NCBI GenBank assembly: GCA_947631905.1
Contig: CANRND010000003.1
Span: 62,001 to 126,000 of the forward strand
From: an uncultured Clostridia bacterium
GTDB lineage: Bacteria > Bacillota > Clostridia > Christensenellales > Borkfalkiaceae
Length of the DNA stretch: 64,000 nt
Reading direction: 5' to 3'
The position numbers were made by a program, and so were the translations under genes. The notes beneath the pieces were generated by a model, which was not told the DNA's origin, made no database searches, and saw only the letters and a program-made list of their open reading frames with translations. Positions 11,776 through 61,916 of the stretch are shown one piece after another. Every line of letters starts with the position of its first letter. Within the stretch, counting starts at the first letter, position 1.

Positions 11776-12033
11776 ATGTTCCGCATTTGGGCAAAAGTGT
11801 TGAAAGAGGGCCGTATCGTAAGCCAGACCACCTACGAGAGTGAGGAAAAGTTCACCTACTCCGATTTTTTCCGCTACCTTACGGAAATCTGCGGAAAGCT
11901 CGACGTTCCCACGCCCGTTCTTTTGAAACCGCACCTTTTTAACTATGCGAAGTTCCGCCACGTCGTATTCCGCCCCGCCGACTTTATGGAGCGGGTAGAT
12001 TTCGACAGGCTGGTGTTGGAAAATATCGGGTAA
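11776..12033 (+). CDS. Small conserved-looking hypothetical protein
   Basis: An 85-residue soluble protein rich in aromatic and charged residues (RPADFMERVDFDRLVLENI at the C terminus). I do not recognise the family. It has a good promoter, normal codon use and sits divergent from greA, so I take it as real. The -10 box is six bases before the ATG and there is no ribosome-binding site, which suggests leaderless expression. A repeat array begins directly after its stop. Confidence 0.7.
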   Translation: MFRIWAKVLKEGRIVSQTTYESEEKFTYSDFFRYLTEICGKLDVPTPVLLKPHLFNYAKFRHVVFRPADFMERVDFDRLVLENIG

Positions 12034-12034
12034 A

Positions 12035-12193
12035 TATTCACGAAAAATCTTTTGCTTTGCAAAATCTTTTTCCGTGAGGAAACTTTCCTCTATGCCTTAA
12101 CTTGCTTATCCTCTCGGTCGTTTCATCGGACAAGAAGTTGCAAGTATGCAACAACTGTGGTCGCGCAGCGAAGAAGCGTGGTTCTTCTCGCGC
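12035..12193 (-). repeat. Three-hairpin structured element, copy D
   Basis: The 12034-12635 gap holds no credible gene. Read on the minus strand this copy has hairpin 1 (AGAAGAA / TTCTTC closed by GCGC on both sides), hairpin 2 (GTTGCA / TTGCAAC) followed by TTCTTGT, then GAGAGGATAA, GTTTCCTC, and hairpin 3 (GGAAAAAGATTTTGC / GCAAAAGATTTTTCGTG). The same order occurs at 12205-12373, 30978-31207 and 57712-57932, and without GAGAGGATAA at 61758-61916. Confidence 0.7.
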
Positions 12194-12204
12194 AAGTAAA
12201 TTTA

Positions 12205-12373
12205 TATTCACGAAAAATCTTTTGCTTCGCAAAATCTTTTTCCGTGAGGAAACTTGCGCTCACGCCTTAACTTGCTTATCCTCTCGGTCGTTTCATCAGA
12301 CACTAAGGCAAAAGTAATTGCCAAATTGAGTCGCCCACGGCGGAAGTCAATTCCGCCTAAGGCAAGTAAATTA
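12205..12373 (-). repeat. Three-hairpin structured element, copy E
   Basis: Tandem to copy D with a period of about 170 bases. The first 95 plus-strand bases are nearly identical to copy D, while the hairpin 1-2 segment differs in sequence. It keeps the pairing (GGCGGAA / TTCCGCC; GGCAA / TTGCC) and ends in the same GCAAGTAAATT on the plus strand. A third, truncated copy (12374-12402) retains only the outer arm of hairpin 3. Confidence 0.7.
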
Positions 12374-12429
12374 TGTTCACGAAAAATCTTTTGCTGCGCG
12401 CAGTGATTTAGAAATACAGACCGTTCCAA

Positions 12430-12535
12430 ATTGTCATTTCGAGCGTAGTCGAGAAATCTCTACCTTAGTGTTAAAATAATGTTGAGATTTCTCCACTCCG
12501 CTCACTTTCGTTCGCTTCGGTCGAAATGACAAAAA
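12430..12535. repeat. Dispersed inverted-repeat element, family R1 (third copy)
   Basis: Begins ATTGTCATTTCGAGCGTAGT and ends GGTCGAAATGACAAA, with GAGAAATCTC and GAGATTTCTC as inner arms. The 12536-12635 remainder has no recognisable feature. Confidence 0.75.
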
Positions 12536-30784: not shown

Positions 30785-30892
30785 GAATATGTACAACCCG
30801 TTCCCTCACGGAAAACAAAAGATTTTCGTGAATATAATAAGGTAGAGATTTCTCCACTTCGTTCCGCTCAACATGACGTGATTTGGGAATTG

Positions 30893-30965
30893 CCCACCCC
30901 CTTAATCCCCCTCCAATGGAGGGGGTTCTACTTGCCCCCTCCGTGGGAGGGGGTAGGGGGTGGGC
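30893..30965. repeat. C/G-rich double-hairpin repeat
   Basis: CCACCCCCTTAATCCCCCTC pairs with its complement about 50 bases on (GGGAGGGGGTAGGGGGTGGG), with an inner pair CCCTCCAATGGAGGG and CCCCCTCCGTGGGAGGGGG. A related sequence lies at 57650-57690. It directly precedes a copy of the three-hairpin element at both sites. The 30785-31218 gap otherwise contains only repeats, including half of an R1 element (about 30841-30880). Confidence 0.6.
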
Positions 30966-30977
30966 GCGTTCCCAACT

Positions 30978-31207
30978 TCCTGCGCGTTGGAAAATCACAC
31001 TTTTCCATAAGCGCACACAATTTGCCGTATGCTTACGGCTTGTTGTAAAAGCCGAGCGAACGAGAGGATAAACCTGTTGATGCATGAGGAAGGTTTCCTC
31101 GCGCAATTCTTTTCCGAGGTGCGGTACGCTTAAAACCATGGGGATACACTCCACTCGGCGCAAGCGCCTCGGTCGGTATGACAACGAGGCAAAGAATTGC
31201 GCGAAAC
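30978..31207 (+). repeat. Three-hairpin structured element, copy A
   Basis: Hairpin 1: GCGC, TGGAAAA (30988-30994) / TTTTCCA (31001-31007), GCGC. Hairpin 2: GCCGTA (31024-31029) / TACGGC (31034-31039), followed by TTGTTGT. Then GAGAGGATAA (31062-31071) and GTTTCCTC (31093-31100). Hairpin 3: GCGCAATTCTTT (31101-31112) pairs perfectly with AAAGAATTGCGC (31191-31202), followed by GAAAC, around a 78-base insert. Confidence 0.75.
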
Positions 31208-31218
31208 TTTTTCGTGAA

Positions 31219-31776
31219 TTACCGAAACGCGCAATATTCCCAGTGGTCGTTGATGACGCCGATGCCCTGCAAATAGGAATAGACGATCGTCGGGCCGACA
31301 AATTTGAAGCCCCGCTTTTTGAGTTCCGCACTGACCTTTTCCGAAAGCGCATCTTTGGCGGGCATATCCTTTGCGCTCAACAAATGGTGGTCTATCACCT
31401 TGCCGCCCGTAAATCCCCATATGAATTTATCGAAACTGCCGAATGCTTCCTGCACTTTCAAAAAAGCGCGCGCATTCGTAACCGCCGCCCCGATTTTGCT
31501 GCGGTTACGGATAATGCCCTCGTCCCGCATCAGTTCCTCTACCTTTTGCTCGCCGTAATTTGCAACGATCTTTGGGTCGAAGCCGTCGAACGCGCGGCGG
31601 AAATTCTCCTCTTTGTTCAAGATCAAATTCCAGCTCACGCCCGCCTGCATGCCCTCCAACACGAGCATAGCGAAAAGCTCCCCGTCCCGATGTTCGGGCT
31701 TGCACCACCGCGTATCATGGTAGCGCAGGACCTTTTCGGAGACGCAGAGCCCTAAATCGCACCGCTTCGTTTCCAT
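31219..31776 (-). CDS. tag: DNA-3-methyladenine glycosylase I
   Basis: 185 residues. Tag removes 3-methyladenine from alkylated DNA (base-excision repair). Family marks: YHDTRWCKPEHRDGELFAML near the N terminus, the helix-hairpin region, and the C-terminal FVGPTIVYSYLQGIGVINDH followed by W-E-Y-C. The Tag zinc ligands (Cys near the N terminus, His, and the C-terminal His and Cys) are present. The six bases separating it from the HIT gene indicate co-transcription with the rng operon. Confidence 0.95.
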   Translation of the reverse strand: METKRCDLGLCVSEKVLRYHDTRWCKPEHRDGELFAMLVLEGMQAGVSWNLILNKEENFRRAFDGFDPKIVANYGEQKVEELMRDEGIIRNRSKIGAAVTNARAFLKVQEAFGSFDKFIWGFTGGKVIDHHLLSAKDMPAKDALSEKVSAELKKRGFKFVGPTIVYSYLQGIGVINDHWEYCAFR

Positions 31777-51379: not shown

Positions 51380-51733
51380 TTATTCTAAATTTAAGTGATA
51401 CAGTATCGCATTTTTTACCTTTTTGAAATCCTTGGAAATCTCATAATTTGAAAACCGTACCACGGTAATCCCTTTCTCTCGAAAAAATTCCGTCCTCTCA
51501 AAATCATACCTCTCTTGCCTTTCCTCGAAATGTTGTGAACCGTCTAATTCAAGAACAAGTTTTTTCTCGGGACAATAGAAATCCGCGATATAATGACCGA
51601 TTACCTTTTGCCTGACAAATTTACAGGGTAGATATTTGAGAAAGGTGTACCACAGTTTTCTTTCTTCTTTTGTCATTGCCTTGCGCAAGGCTTTTGCATT
51701 TTTTATGAGTTCGGGATTGTATAGCTCGTTCAT
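51380..51733 (-). CDS. DUF559 / Vsr-like endonuclease-fold protein
   Basis: 117 residues. The restriction-fold marks are IGHYIADFYCPEKKLVLELD, with the catalytic D-x(n)-ExD pattern (ADFYCP, LELDGSQH), and the C-terminal GITVVRFSNYEIS. DUF559 proteins resemble Vsr mismatch endonucleases; activity is rarely shown. It is AT-richer than gyrA and gyrB, is flanked by hairpin repeats, and lies next to a duplicated gyrB end. All of this suggests a mobile gene that inserted between the gyrase genes (inference). Confidence 0.88.
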   Translation of the reverse strand: MNELYNPELIKNAKALRKAMTKEERKLWYTFLKYLPCKFVRQKVIGHYIADFYCPEKKLVLELDGSQHFEERQERYDFERTEFFREKGITVVRFSNYEISKDFKKVKNAILYHLNLE

Positions 51734-51801
51734 TTACACCCCTTCCGTCGCTCGCTTTGCTCGCGCCACCCACCCCTCAAGGGGTGGGCAAGATGTATTT
51801 C

Positions 51802-51855
51802 TTATATGTCCAAATCAGTCACCAAAGTGGCGTTTTCTTCGATAAATTTGCGCCT
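51802..51855 (-). pseudogene. Second copy of the gyrB 3' end (17 codons and stop)
   Basis: Reads RRKFIEENATLVTDLDI and TAA, identical in protein to the true gyrB end at 51912-51965, exactly 110 bases downstream. The two 54-base copies differ at eight positions, all synonymous. It has no start and is not expressed as a protein by itself. The spacer between the copies (51856-51911) is unrelated sequence. Confidence 0.85.
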
Positions 51856-51911
51856 GGGTACGTGACCGAGGAAAACGCAGCGCGACACAGCATTGCGCCG
51901 CTTATACGCGT

Positions 51912-53825
51912 TTATATGTCGAGGTCAGTGACAAGGGTGGCGTTTTCTTCGATAAACTTGCGCCTCAGCGCCGGGCTTTCGCCCATTAGGATGTTGAACA
52001 TCTTGTCCGCTTCCACCGCGTCCTCCATAGAGACCTTGATGAGGGTGCGGGTGGCGGGGTTCATGGTGGTATCCCACAGCTGTTCGGTACTCATTTCGCC
52101 CAAACCTTTGTACCGTTGGTACTCCACTTTGTTGTTGTTCGCCGCGTCGAAGAGTACTTTTTCCTCTTCGGAATAGAGGTATACGTCCTCTTTTCCTTTG
52201 ACGCTCGCCTTGTAAAGGGGCGGCTTTGCCGAATACACATGCCCGTGTTCGATGAGCGGGCGCATGTAGCGGAACAGGAAAGTGAGCAGCAGAATGCGGA
52301 TGTGCGCGCCGTCTACATCGGCATCGGTCATGGAGATGATGCGGTCGTAGCGGAGCTTGCTCTCGTCGAAATCGTCTAAAATGCCGCAGCCGAACGCCGT
52401 GATCATCGCCTTGATCTCCGCGTTTTCGAGCGCGCGGTTGAGGCGGACTTTTTCGACATTCAAAATTTTGCCGCGGAGGGGTAGAATGGCCTGGAAACGC
52501 CTGTCTCTGCCCTGCTTTGCCGTGCCGCCTGCGGAATCCCCCTCGACGATGTAAATTTCGCACAGTTCGGGGCGCTTATCCGAGCAGTCGGCAAGTTTTC
52601 CGGGGAGGGTCGTGCTTTCAAGCACCCCCTTGCGCCTTGTGAGTTCACGGGCGTTTCTCGCCGCGTCGCGCGCTTTCTGCGCCGTGATACAGCGCAAAAC
52701 GAGTTCCCGTGCGACGGAGGGGTGTTCCTCGATGTAGGTGCCGAATTCATCCGCCACGGCCTTGTTGACAAAGGGACGGATGAACGAGTTGTTGAGTTTA
52801 TCCTTTGTCTGCGACTCGAACTGCGCGTCTTCGAGTTTGACGGAGACAACGGCGGTGATGCCCTCGCGCACGTCCTCGCCTGTGAGACGGTCGCTCTCTT
52901 TGAGCAGGTTGAGCTTTCTGCCCGCGTCGTTGATGACCTTTGTGAGCGCCAGTTTCAAGCCCTCGACGTGCGTGCCGCCGTCGATGGTGTTGACGTTGTT
53001 CGCATAGGAATAGATGACTTCGTTATAGCTCTCGTTGTATTGCAGGGCGACCTCGCAGACCGTAGTCCCCTCCTGCGCCTCGAAATAAAGAGGCTGTTCA
53101 AACAGGACTTCGCTCCCCTGGTTGAGTTCTTCCACAAGTTCGCGGATACCGCCCTCATAGCAGAAACTGTCCCGCCGCTCCTTTTCCCCCCTGAGATCGG
53201 CAAGGGTGATCGTAAGCCCCTTGTTGAGGAACGCCAGTTCTTTTAAGCGGGTTTTGAGCGTTTCGTACTTGAACGTGATCGTCTCGAAAATTTCCGCGTC
53301 GGGAAAGAAGGTGACTTTGGTCCCCGTTTTGTCGGTATCCCCGATGATATGAAGCGGGCGCTGGGGAACGCCGCGGTTATAAACCTGTTTGTAGATGTGG
53401 CCGTTCTGGCAGACCTCGGCCTCTAACCATTCGGAGAGTGCATTCACCGCCTTTACGCCCACGCCGTGCAGGCCCGAAGAGACTTTGTAGCCCGAATCGC
53501 CGCCGAACTTGCCGCCCGCGTTGACTTTGGTAAAGACGACTTCCACGGTGGAAATGCCCTCTTTGGGGTGAATTTCGGTGGGAATGCCCCGCCCGTTGTC
53601 CTCCACGGTGCAACTGCCGTCCGCGTTGATGGTGACGTCTACGCGGTCGCAATAGCCCGCGAGTGCCTCGTCGATGGAATTGTCCACGACTTCGCTTACG
53701 AGATGGTGAAGCCCCTTTTCGTCCGTGGAGCTGATGTACATGCCGGGGCGTTTGCGGATATGTTCCAAACCGTCCAATACCTGAATTTGTTCGGCGCCGT
53801 ATGCGCCCTCTACTTTTTCCGCCAT
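51912..53825 (-). CDS. gyrB: DNA gyrase subunit B
   Basis: 637 residues, ATPase subunit. GHKL ATP site (VVDNSIDEALAGYCD; GRGIPTEIHP; GLHGVGVKAVNALSEWL), Toprim domain with EGDSAGGTAKQGRDR and the acidic DADVDGAHIR, and the C-terminal RYKGLGEMSTEQLWDTTM. Length is normal. ATG 53825 follows AAGGAG. The leader contains a long alternating purine-pyrimidine tract. The last 17 codons are duplicated downstream, so the present 3' end may have been rebuilt during insertion of the DUF559 cassette. Confidence 0.98.
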   Translation of the reverse strand: MAEKVEGAYGAEQIQVLDGLEHIRKRPGMYISSTDEKGLHHLVSEVVDNSIDEALAGYCDRVDVTINADGSCTVEDNGRGIPTEIHPKEGISTVEVVFTKVNAGGKFGGDSGYKVSSGLHGVGVKAVNALSEWLEAEVCQNGHIYKQVYNRGVPQRPLHIIGDTDKTGTKVTFFPDAEIFETITFKYETLKTRLKELAFLNKGLTITLADLRGEKERRDSFCYEGGIRELVEELNQGSEVLFEQPLYFEAQEGTTVCEVALQYNESYNEVIYSYANNVNTIDGGTHVEGLKLALTKVINDAGRKLNLLKESDRLTGEDVREGITAVVSVKLEDAQFESQTKDKLNNSFIRPFVNKAVADEFGTYIEEHPSVARELVLRCITAQKARDAARNARELTRRKGVLESTTLPGKLADCSDKRPELCEIYIVEGDSAGGTAKQGRDRRFQAILPLRGKILNVEKVRLNRALENAEIKAMITAFGCGILDDFDESKLRYDRIISMTDADVDGAHIRILLLTFLFRYMRPLIEHGHVYSAKPPLYKASVKGKEDVYLYSEEEKVLFDAANNNKVEYQRYKGLGEMSTEQLWDTTMNPATRTLIKVSMEDAVEADKMFNILMGESPALRRKFIEENATLVTDLDI

Positions 53826-57711: not shown

Positions 57712-57932
57712 TTCCTGCGCGAAGCAGGGTTTCCCTGCGGTAGCGCACGCAATTTGCCGCATTCTTACGGCTTGTTGTAAAAGCCGAGCGAATGAGAGGA
57801 TAAACCTGTTGATGCACGAGGAAGGTTTCCTCGCACAATTCTTTTCGAAGCGACACCCCCTCAGTCACCTGCGGTGCAGCTCCCCCTCAAGGGGGAGCCA
57901 AGAGGGGGCGCGAGCAAAGAATTGTGCGAAAC
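57712..57932 (+). repeat. Three-hairpin structured element, copy B
   Basis: Hairpin 1: GCGC, GCAGGG (57724-57729) / CCCTGC (57733-57738), GCGC. Hairpin 2: GCCGCA / TACGGC (one mismatch) then TTGTTGT. GAGAGGATAA (57794-57803), GTTTCCTC (57825-57832). Hairpin 3: GCACAATTCTTT (57833-57844) / AAAGAATTGTGC (57916-57927), then GAAAC. The loop of hairpin 3 contains a nested CCCCCTC repeat (57853-57907). Confidence 0.75.
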
Positions 57933-57947
57933 TAATCTCGTCAAATT

Positions 57948-58493
57948 TTACTCGAATTGATTTGCAATGATGTCCGACGTGAGACGGGCGAGTTTCACCG
58001 CGGACGACTCCATGATCGCCCCCTCGTCGGTGGAAAGAAGCACCACCGCGCCCAAACAATCCCCGTTCGAAACGACGGGGACGATGACCTGCGCCGTGAC
58101 CGTGAGATCGCTGTCGGTTGCGATGGGCAGAATGTCGCCGCCCTCCGCCTTGTTCGCAAGATAGCTCCTGCGCGAGAGCATGACCTCCGTCATCTTGTCC
58201 GAAACCGACTTGCCCGCAAGCGACTTCTTGCCCGTGCCGCTCGCCTGCAAAACGCCGTCCGTATCGCAGATGACCGCAAGATACCCGCTCTGTTCGTTCA
58301 AAGACTTCGCCGTACCCTTTGCAAACTGTTCGATGCTGGCGATGGGCGAATATTTTTTGAGCATGAGTTCGTCGCGGTCGGTGAAGAGTTCCAAAGGATC
58401 CCCTTCCCGGATGCGGAGCGTCCTCCTTATTTCTTTGGGGATGACGACTCTCCCGAGTTCGTCGATCCGCCTTACAATTCCCGTTGCTTTCAT
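57948..58493 (-). CDS. spoVT: Stage V sporulation protein T (SpoVT)
   Basis: 181 residues. AbrB-type DNA-binding N terminus (MKATGIVRRIDELGRVVIPK, then EIRRTLRIREGDPLELF) and a C-terminal GAF-like domain (about 55-181). SpoVT adjusts late forespore genes of the sigma-G regulon. A sigma-G-type promoter and a GGAGGTTG ribosome site precede it. spoVB and yabN follow in the order seen in Bacillus. Confidence 0.97.
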   Translation of the reverse strand: MKATGIVRRIDELGRVVIPKEIRRTLRIREGDPLELFTDRDELMLKKYSPIASIEQFAKGTAKSLNEQSGYLAVICDTDGVLQASGTGKKSLAGKSVSDKMTEVMLSRRSYLANKAEGGDILPIATDSDLTVTAQVIVPVVSNGDCLGAVVLLSTDEGAIMESSAVKLARLTSDIIANQFE

Positions 58494-61468: not shown

Positions 61469-61735
61469 TCATTTCGCCCCGCCCGCATGTTCTATTTTGT
61501 CGAAAGGCGGCACGAGCCGCAGGCGAAGTACCGTAGCGAGCGCCGCGAGCGAAGTGGAGAAATCTCACATTATTAGGGTTCCCGAAAAAGATTGCGGAGC
61601 AAGATTTTTTGGGAAGAGGAGCCGCCGCCCGCAAATAGAACTTTTCGTAAGAAAAGCGTAAAAATCGGGCGAGCGGCGACGAGGTTGAGATTTCTCGACT
61701 ACGGCTTACGCCTCCGCTCGAAATGACAGTTTAGA
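61469..61735. repeat. Composite of R1-family repeat ends
   Basis: The 61404-61917 gap has no gene. R1 sequence recurs as ATGTCATTTCG (about 61469) with GGAGAAATCTCACATTATTA and again as GAGATTTCTCGAC ... CCGCTCGAAATGAC (about 61686-61730), with about 110 bases of unrelated sequence between. It looks like two overlapping or rearranged copies. Confidence 0.6.
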
Positions 61736-61757: not shown

Positions 61758-61916
61758 TACTGCGCGTTGGAAAACCACGCTTTTCCATAAGCGCACACAA
61801 TTTGCCGCATACCTGCGGCTTGTTGTCGGAGAAAGCGTTTTTCGGAGTCTGCGCGGTCGATATTGAAAGCAGGTTCGCTCGCCCGTTTTTTGCAAAAGGC
61901 AAAAAACGGGCGAAAC
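61758..61916 (+). repeat. Three-hairpin structured element, copy C
   Basis: Hairpin 1: GCGC, TGGAAAA / TTTTCCA, GCGC (61762-61794). Hairpin 2: GCCGCA (61804-61809) / TGCGGC (61814-61819), then TTGTTGT. The GAGAGGATAA segment is replaced by other sequence. GTTCGCTC (61873-61880), hairpin 3 GCCCGTTTTTTGC (61881-61893) / GCAAAAAACGGGC (61899-61911), GAAAC. It abuts the uvrA stop and could also act as its terminator. Confidence 0.7.

Follow-up and report, generated by a model that had tools for sequence, protein, structure and literature searches.

The dispersed three-hairpin element found in the window, that is, in the whole 64,000-nt stretch analyzed here from a genome of an uncultured Clostridia bacterium, is best read as a modular palindromic repeat of the REP/BIME/BOX kind that is non-autonomous and specific to one genus; the broad kind is known, and it is the family and its behavior that are unusual. 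With modest confidence, we favor the view that this repeat acts as an mRNA 3'-end hairpin device, placed directly behind stop codons.

Architecture, range and pairing of the element

Five copies with one shared order of parts had been claimed from the sequence of the window, and all five are present in that order; they are also exactly the matches that a DNA profile built from 112 copies finds there. The hairpins are designated H1, H2 and H3, and the copies, adjoining genes and further features of the window are as follows.

761-1063, 12420-12514, 30836-30960 and 61620-61730: other palindromic families
11776-12033 (+): gene of 85 aa without an NCBIfam family; its stop codon is abutted by copy A, and two tandem copies follow
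12037-12195 (-): copy A, with H1 12195-12161, H2 12158-12130, core 12115-12076 and H3 12078-12037, the H3 end lying 4 nt past where the gene at 11776-12033 (+) stops
12207-12365 (-): copy B, with H1 12365-12331, H2 12328-12300, core 12285-12246 and H3 12248-12207
30804-30834 (+): solitary hairpin CCTCACGGAAAACAAAAGATTTTCGTGAA resembling H3, with no H1, H2 or core beside it
30981-31207 (+): copy C, with H1 30981-31015, H2 31016-31046, core 31062-31100, H3 arms 31101-31112 and 31191-31202, and GAAAC 31203-31207
31113-31190 (no strand assigned): insert within the H3 loop of copy C; its sequence recurs in H3 loops elsewhere, e.g., at locus L007
31219-31776 (-): gene with its stop codon 12 nt past copy C; top NCBIfam match DNA-3-methyladenine glycosylase I, under the curated cut-off
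51802-51855 and 51912-51965: repeat of the gyrB 3' end, just before a palindromic repeat and a DUF559 gene
57716-57932 (+): copy D, with H1 57716-57747 (CAGGG version), H2 57749-57778, core 57794-57832, H3 arms 57833-57844 and 57916-57927 around a loop that holds another repeat, and GAAAC 57928-57932
57948-58493 (-): gene with its stop codon 16 nt past copy D; top NCBIfam match SpoVT, under the curated cut-off
61761-61916 (+): copy E, whose core is a different one; H1 61761-61795, H2 61796-61826, other core 61827-61880, H3 61881-61911 and GAAAC 61912-61916, adjoining the uvrA stop codon
61918-63999 (-): uvrA, truncated by the window end; stop codon 2 nt past copy E

In 129 parsed copies, and in the direction in which the element was originally read, the element runs from H1 through H2, a linker and the core to H3, which closes on GAAAC or GTGAA. 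The core follows the pattern [GA]AGAGGAYAA-NNNN-GTTRANRC-N-GTTTCCTC, and the element with its three hairpins measures approximately 160 nt. Its supposed intergenic and non-coding nature is borne out, as predicted genes overlap none of the 129 cores and none of the 52 matches in 1.14 Mb of the source genome. Five common versions of H1 and four of H2 combine freely (16 of the 129 copies are untypable at one or both hairpins), the core exists in several discrete versions, and the modules reassort. The tandem copies A and B have identical variable core bases and different versions of H1 and H2, and other tandem copies can show the same combination (L039 and L049, for example). The copy at 61.8 kb had been described as lacking GAGAGGATAA; this sequence is indeed absent, but a different core sits between an H2 of the same kind and an H3, and the copy belongs to the 31 of 235 distinct matches in which another core accompanies H1 and H2.

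Other palindromes are often found inside H3 loops (L005, L007, L010, L013 and more loci), and it may be at the hairpin tips that such repeats enter. At L129, L046 and L050 (own copies and CANROE), the stop codon TGA of the gene lies inside the 3' arm of H3 (CCGTGAGGAAAC), and the reading frame may thus end in sequence contributed by the element.

A covariance-model search of this genome and of related Clostridia had been asked for by the original prediction. Model R1, which comprises H2 and the core and was built from 42 chosen copies, gives 77 matches in the source genome (best E 2e-24), and a 22-base core pattern with at most one mismatch finds 13 sites in the draft genome, against one for the reversed control. 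Of 61 relatives, 25 contain R1 matches; these belong without exception to a single genus (25 of its 37 members), and the 24 genomes of other families contain none. Copy numbers per genome run from 0 to at least 66; an order-wide search with stricter filters yields 5 of 200 genomes, all within the genus. A scan of genome contigs returned 95 stretches, the 80 listed all belonging to rabbit-gut 'Lapin' Clostridia MAGs, and a viral collection gave one match (L109), which is not recovered with the element profile. Genomes G010 and G034, with 0 and 1 R1 matches, contain the GGCGGAA version of H1 31 and 18 times, respectively; the GGCGGAA stretches read in these genomes continue with other H2 versions, other cores and then H3. 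Rfam names nothing, in agreement with the statement that no named family fits: across the window no score exceeds any family's gathering threshold, and 30900-31300 and 12000-12420 give only far sub-threshold matches. With no Rfam family, a riboswitch, a ribozyme or another named RNA was rejected. The open-licence literature yielded no description of this repeat family, which is weak evidence of absence.

Compensatory stem changes had been a main argument of the original prediction. They hold for H1 and H2, which covary in larger sets, but the GAGGA/TCCTC pairing is invariant and, as it never varies, is not evidence of covariation. For H2, in 42 hand-picked copies out of 129, the covariation score is 0.293 against a shuffled mean of 0.079 (none of 500 shuffles as high), and 97.3% of cells are paired, compared with 31-56% when slid; double-change pairs and further pair types in H2 are not above shuffles, which reach the observed values in 374 and 437 of 500 cases. 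The outer stem of H1 is paired in 388 of 420 cells (0.30-0.58 when slid), as counted in 86 of 110 rows with the CAGGG class omitted as misaligned. The arms of H3 are Watson-Crick in 1290 of 1371 cells from 118 of the 129 copies, a count that omits 7 copies without a matching arm and 4 that are too short. Covariation, which might have disappeared in a larger alignment, thus held. Since the versions are discrete, cassette exchange rather than step-by-step compensation may underlie it; covariation in a multi-copy repeat can come from such exchange and is, alone, no proof of a structured RNA.

Wobble pairs do not reveal which strand a functional RNA would come from, since the hairpins contradict each other: they favor the originally read strand in H1 (8.5 vs. 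0.3%) and the gene-sense strand in H2 (4.4 vs. 2.3%), and in H3 they are nearly absent with neither strand favored. A regulatory or trans-acting structured RNA transcribed from the originally read + strand would be in line with the covariation of H1 and H2 and with the wobble pairs of H1. We nevertheless hold it to be highly improbable, given the opposite preference of H2, the lack of an Rfam match and a fixed antisense placement behind stop codons that is unexpected for such an RNA. Complementarity of the core to its flanks on the opposite strand is likewise not beyond chance (5 and 15 of 60 shuffles reach the observed level), so that no opposite-strand signal of a guide-like core, as in guide or bridge RNAs, is seen. 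Same-strand matches between core and flanks are equaled by none of 60 shuffles on either side, an excess that probably comes from neighboring copies.

Placement behind stop codons and transcription of the neighboring genes

Gene context was determined for 52 matches in 1,138,284 bases (57%) of the source genome. In 48 of these 52 copies H3 points toward the stop codon of the neighboring gene. The element is found in 33 of 678 codirectional and 9 of 89 convergent spaces, and in none of 85 divergent spaces; within codirectional spaces, 37 copies are antisense and 4 sense. The + strand orientation of the original prediction needs correction in this respect: for most copies it runs antisense to the neighboring gene, the one with its stop codon against H3. 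Over all loci, and with hexamer-based gene calls, the gene that H3 faces is on the opposite strand for 101 of the 119 copies with a known neighbor (out of 129). The distance is short: the outer arm of H3 starts no more than 5 nt from the stop codon in 32 of 39 own spaces (2 of which lack a recognized H3 motif), compared with 32 of 374 element-free control spaces, and in 56 of 70 single-copy spaces from all loci, among which H3 is unrecognized in 2 and the stop codon lies inside the H3 arm in another 2. In convergent spaces, H3 starts within 5 nt of the stop codon in 7 of the 9 found.

Downstream of the element, promoters are scarce. At a score of at least 10, sigma-70-like promoters, the only kind scored, are absent from the 150 nt before the next gene in all 33 element spaces but occur there in 48 of 141 element-free codirectional spaces of 150 nt or more (Fisher p 7e-6), and in 50% of 124 divergent gene starts; over the whole space the counts are 1 of 33 and 71 of 141. 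Since the next gene of the operon is nearly without promoter signal, the element is probably co-transcribed and probably no terminator, and the simplest reading is that both genes stay on one transcript running through the element.

Hairpin clusters behind stop codons have been proposed in general as terminators in one source (PMC8355165). For the present element such a role would fit the three or more hairpins directly behind stop codons and the rarity of canonical terminators at its genes: of 51 cases with the element, 8 have terminator-like signals within the first 90 nt, vs. 145 of 374, and element-free genes of the window have canonical terminators. However, no U-run follows H3 in the window copies, and the combination that marks an intrinsic terminator, namely a G+C-rich hairpin with a U-run and downstream genes with their own promoters, is not found. 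As the downstream codirectional genes, the operon partners of ffh and proS included, lack promoter signal, termination would silence them, which makes a terminator of clustered hairpins very unlikely in our judgment.

The element occupies gene ends: H3 comes directly after a stop codon, and all parts run antisense to the gene that ends there. Often lying between two genes of one operon, it would, as an mRNA 3'-end hairpin device, be read into the operon mRNA from the strand opposite to that originally read, giving the order stop codon, H3, core, H2, H1 and next gene. The strong 3' hairpin would then protect the upstream message from 3' exonucleases or slow ribosomes at the stop codon, and would uncouple the downstream gene; the contents would be replaced by new copies or by recombination with sister copies, the site staying occupied. 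The location behind stop codons inside transcription units makes it most likely that the element is part of mRNA; we infer this co-transcription, and likewise an effect at the RNA level, selection for that effect and the way in which modules are exchanged. There are counterpoints. The fixed stop-proximal position could stem from target preference alone, and the scarcity of wobble pairs in H3 fits upkeep of a palindrome at the DNA level as well as it fits selection on RNA. One might moreover expect a functional element to persist, yet the junctions are patchy, with 4 changes behind ffh and 7 behind proS (see below). Nor are motifs resembling ribosome-binding sites before the next gene more common than elsewhere (19 of 33 vs. 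93 of 141). If the hairpin-device reading is right, this repeat family is part of operon messages throughout the genus, behind ffh, proS and other housekeeping genes, at fixed sites with changing contents.

Filled and empty junctions and the question of mobility

Orthologous junctions with and without the element could be paired in 50 comparisons, 41 of which have the same downstream gene; some of the 50 are repeated, with one copy under two loci. The gaps of the empty junctions range from -3 to 414 nt, and in one example 447 nt with the element correspond to an ATGA overlap when empty, a pair that we take to be rimM-trmD. These pairs constitute a natural set of filled and empty operon junctions on which the effect of a hairpin behind a stop codon can be measured. 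Behind ffh, identified by motif and query, the element is present in 9 of 30 genomes as judged by eye, and other genomes have a short gap to the next gene, presumably rpsP. Behind a proS-like gene it is present in 11 of 29 genomes, with G030 left out. The minimum numbers of changes on a quick tree of the two proteins, in which 12 of 35 inner branches are open, are 4 (ffh) and 7 (proS).

Occupancy recurs at the same genes. Among own orthologues of genes that bear the element elsewhere, 21 of 30 carry it. The base rate over all genes is 39 of 856, and where the orthologous genes elsewhere lack the element it is 9 of 103. The contents at such sites are scarcely more alike than those behind other genes: likeness is 0.545 behind orthologous genes and 0.521 behind other genes (s.d. 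0.075), and the same version is shared in 24 vs. 19% of pairs for H1, 46 vs. 36% for H2, 18 vs. 17% for H3 and 6 vs. 4% for the core NNNN, in a test of 33 non-independent pairs from 37 genes with 64 of 134 spaces parsed. An identical spacer of at least 3 nt between stop codon and H3 is seen in 5 of the 33 pairs (3 gene families) vs. 3 of 1758. Sharing of H3 arms, scored in 114 of 129 copies, is 0.228 within genomes and 0.090 between them, and no label shuffle out of 500 reaches the observed level. As orthologous sites are occupied with unlike contents and H3 arms are genome-specific, we infer that the places persist or are re-used and that their contents are renewed within each genome, by gene conversion or renewed insertion.

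The alternative posed in the original prediction, a structured RNA or a transposed DNA element with folded ends, appears too strict. The folded layout and the covariation stand, and the element looks like a mixture: its spread is mobile-like, with patchy presence, empty junctions and genome-specific H3 arms, yet copies lie behind stop codons in transcription units. One may go further and suppose a mobile or recombining element addressed to the ends of reading frames, which would be re-installed behind the stop codons of the same genes in different species, with the same facing and exchanged cassettes, as a plug-in 3' module that tunes operon genes; we regard this fuller version as unlikely. 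The hairpin-device reading, if right, also raises the question of how a DNA element finds gene ends so exactly without a known transposase.

That the element is selfish mobile DNA which targets gene 3' ends and has no useful effect is a real possibility, albeit not the outcome that we expect. The folded parts would then serve transposition, and the position would reflect targeting together with the purging of harmful insertions. Patchiness within one genus, empty sites, tandem copies, genome-specific H3 arms, repeated gain or loss at the same junctions and the nearly pure Watson-Crick pairing of H3 all agree with this. However, purging alone does not explain why H3 starts within 5 nt of the stop codon in convergent spaces too (7 of the 9 found). 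Empty orthologous sites are as in MITEs, but the target site duplication of MITEs was not detected: in 70 spaces, flank matches show no excess over shuffled pairs at 8, 12 and 20 nt. At a 60/400 setting the flank match exceeds 98 of 100 shuffles, and the top matches there are H3-like pieces. By eye, no end-to-end inverted repeat is apparent in the window copies, and no copy with an internal gene was noticed among partial matches or in 1.14 Mb of genome.

Y1 transposase genes (Y1_Tnp, PF01797) are absent from the source genome (G000) and from G005, G006, G007 and G024; mobilization of the RAYT/IS200 type was rejected because they are missing from it and from these four other high-copy genomes. 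They occur in 10 of 41 genus genomes, including one gene in G002, which has 57 core matches. DUF559 genes are present in 20 of 41 genus genomes, two of them in the source genome, but as drivers they do not track copy number (none in G002 despite its 57 core matches, one in G010). Remnants of a known coding transposon, whether of the IS200/IS605 or RAYT type or of a DUF559-bearing element, therefore have hardly any credibility as an explanation, even though DUF559 genes are this widespread and that of the window is flanked by repeats of a type that H3 loops contain as well. No copy was seen to be a decayed piece of a coding transposon, as had been considered originally.

The DUF559 gene of the window (51392-51706, within 51380-51966 on the - strand) is located between the palindromic repeats CACCCCTTGAGGGGTGGG... 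and ACACCCCCTCAGTCAC..., and repeats of this kind are also found in H3 loops of the element; the locus is possibly a gene-bearing form of that other palindromic repeat. Next to it, the 3' end of gyrB (54 nt including the stop codon) recurs after 110 bases with 85% identity; it looks as though something inserted at the end of the gene had displaced the old end without removing it.

Comparison with known repeat families

The element resembles the REP/BIME sequences of Escherichia coli, dispersed palindromes outside genes whose clusters form mosaic units, according to passages of two sources (PMC12306157, PMC3733652), which in one count place 446 of 4,072 REPs within 15 nt of a stop codon. Palindromes close behind stop codons are what we observe here too. 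REPs located this near to a stop codon are said to lower translation. One of the two sources (PMC12306157) reports ribosome stalling at such REPs and protection of mRNA from exonucleases by REPs, and we judge this kind of effect most likely for the element. In contrast to REPs, which are palindromes of 20-40 bp with a GTAG or CGTC end, the element measures approximately 160 nt, has three hairpins and an exchangeable core, and ends in GAAAC or GTGAA and in H1. It also has one fixed orientation to the gene (48 of 52 copies), and its own genome is without the Y1 tyrosine transposase that goes with REP/RAYT.

With BOX of Streptococcus pneumoniae the element shares a modular build with reassorting modules. 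BOX is described as varying in how many boxB modules it contains and as enriched between convergent genes, with distances to genes that decay (PMC3049150). By that description it differs from the element, where one version takes the place of another at a fixed position and H3 lies against stop codons. The enterobacterial repeats YPAL/RU-2 and ERIC are characterized as non-autonomous, 127-168 bp long, with internal inverted repeats and co-transcribed with their neighbors, ERIC being linked to mRNA stability and YPAL having target duplications of 3-26 bp (PMC2229807). Compared by this description only, YPAL differs in its target duplications, which were not detected for the element. The element is assigned to none of REP/BIME, BOX, ERIC and YPAL, and is set apart by its size, by module exchange at sites that stay the same, by its constant antisense position relative to stop codons and by the absence of a known transposase. 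EFAR repeats of Enterococcus are modular, lie near gene ends and act as bidirectional terminators, a role that does not fit the element.

The element may also be found in dense groups, as beside ffh at G006:C24:9687-11336, where at least 7 core matches are clustered, several of them approximately 167 bases apart. The same intergenic spaces also collect other dispersed palindromic families, such as GAGATTTCTCGACT...GAAATGACA and CCCCCTCC...GGAGGGGG.
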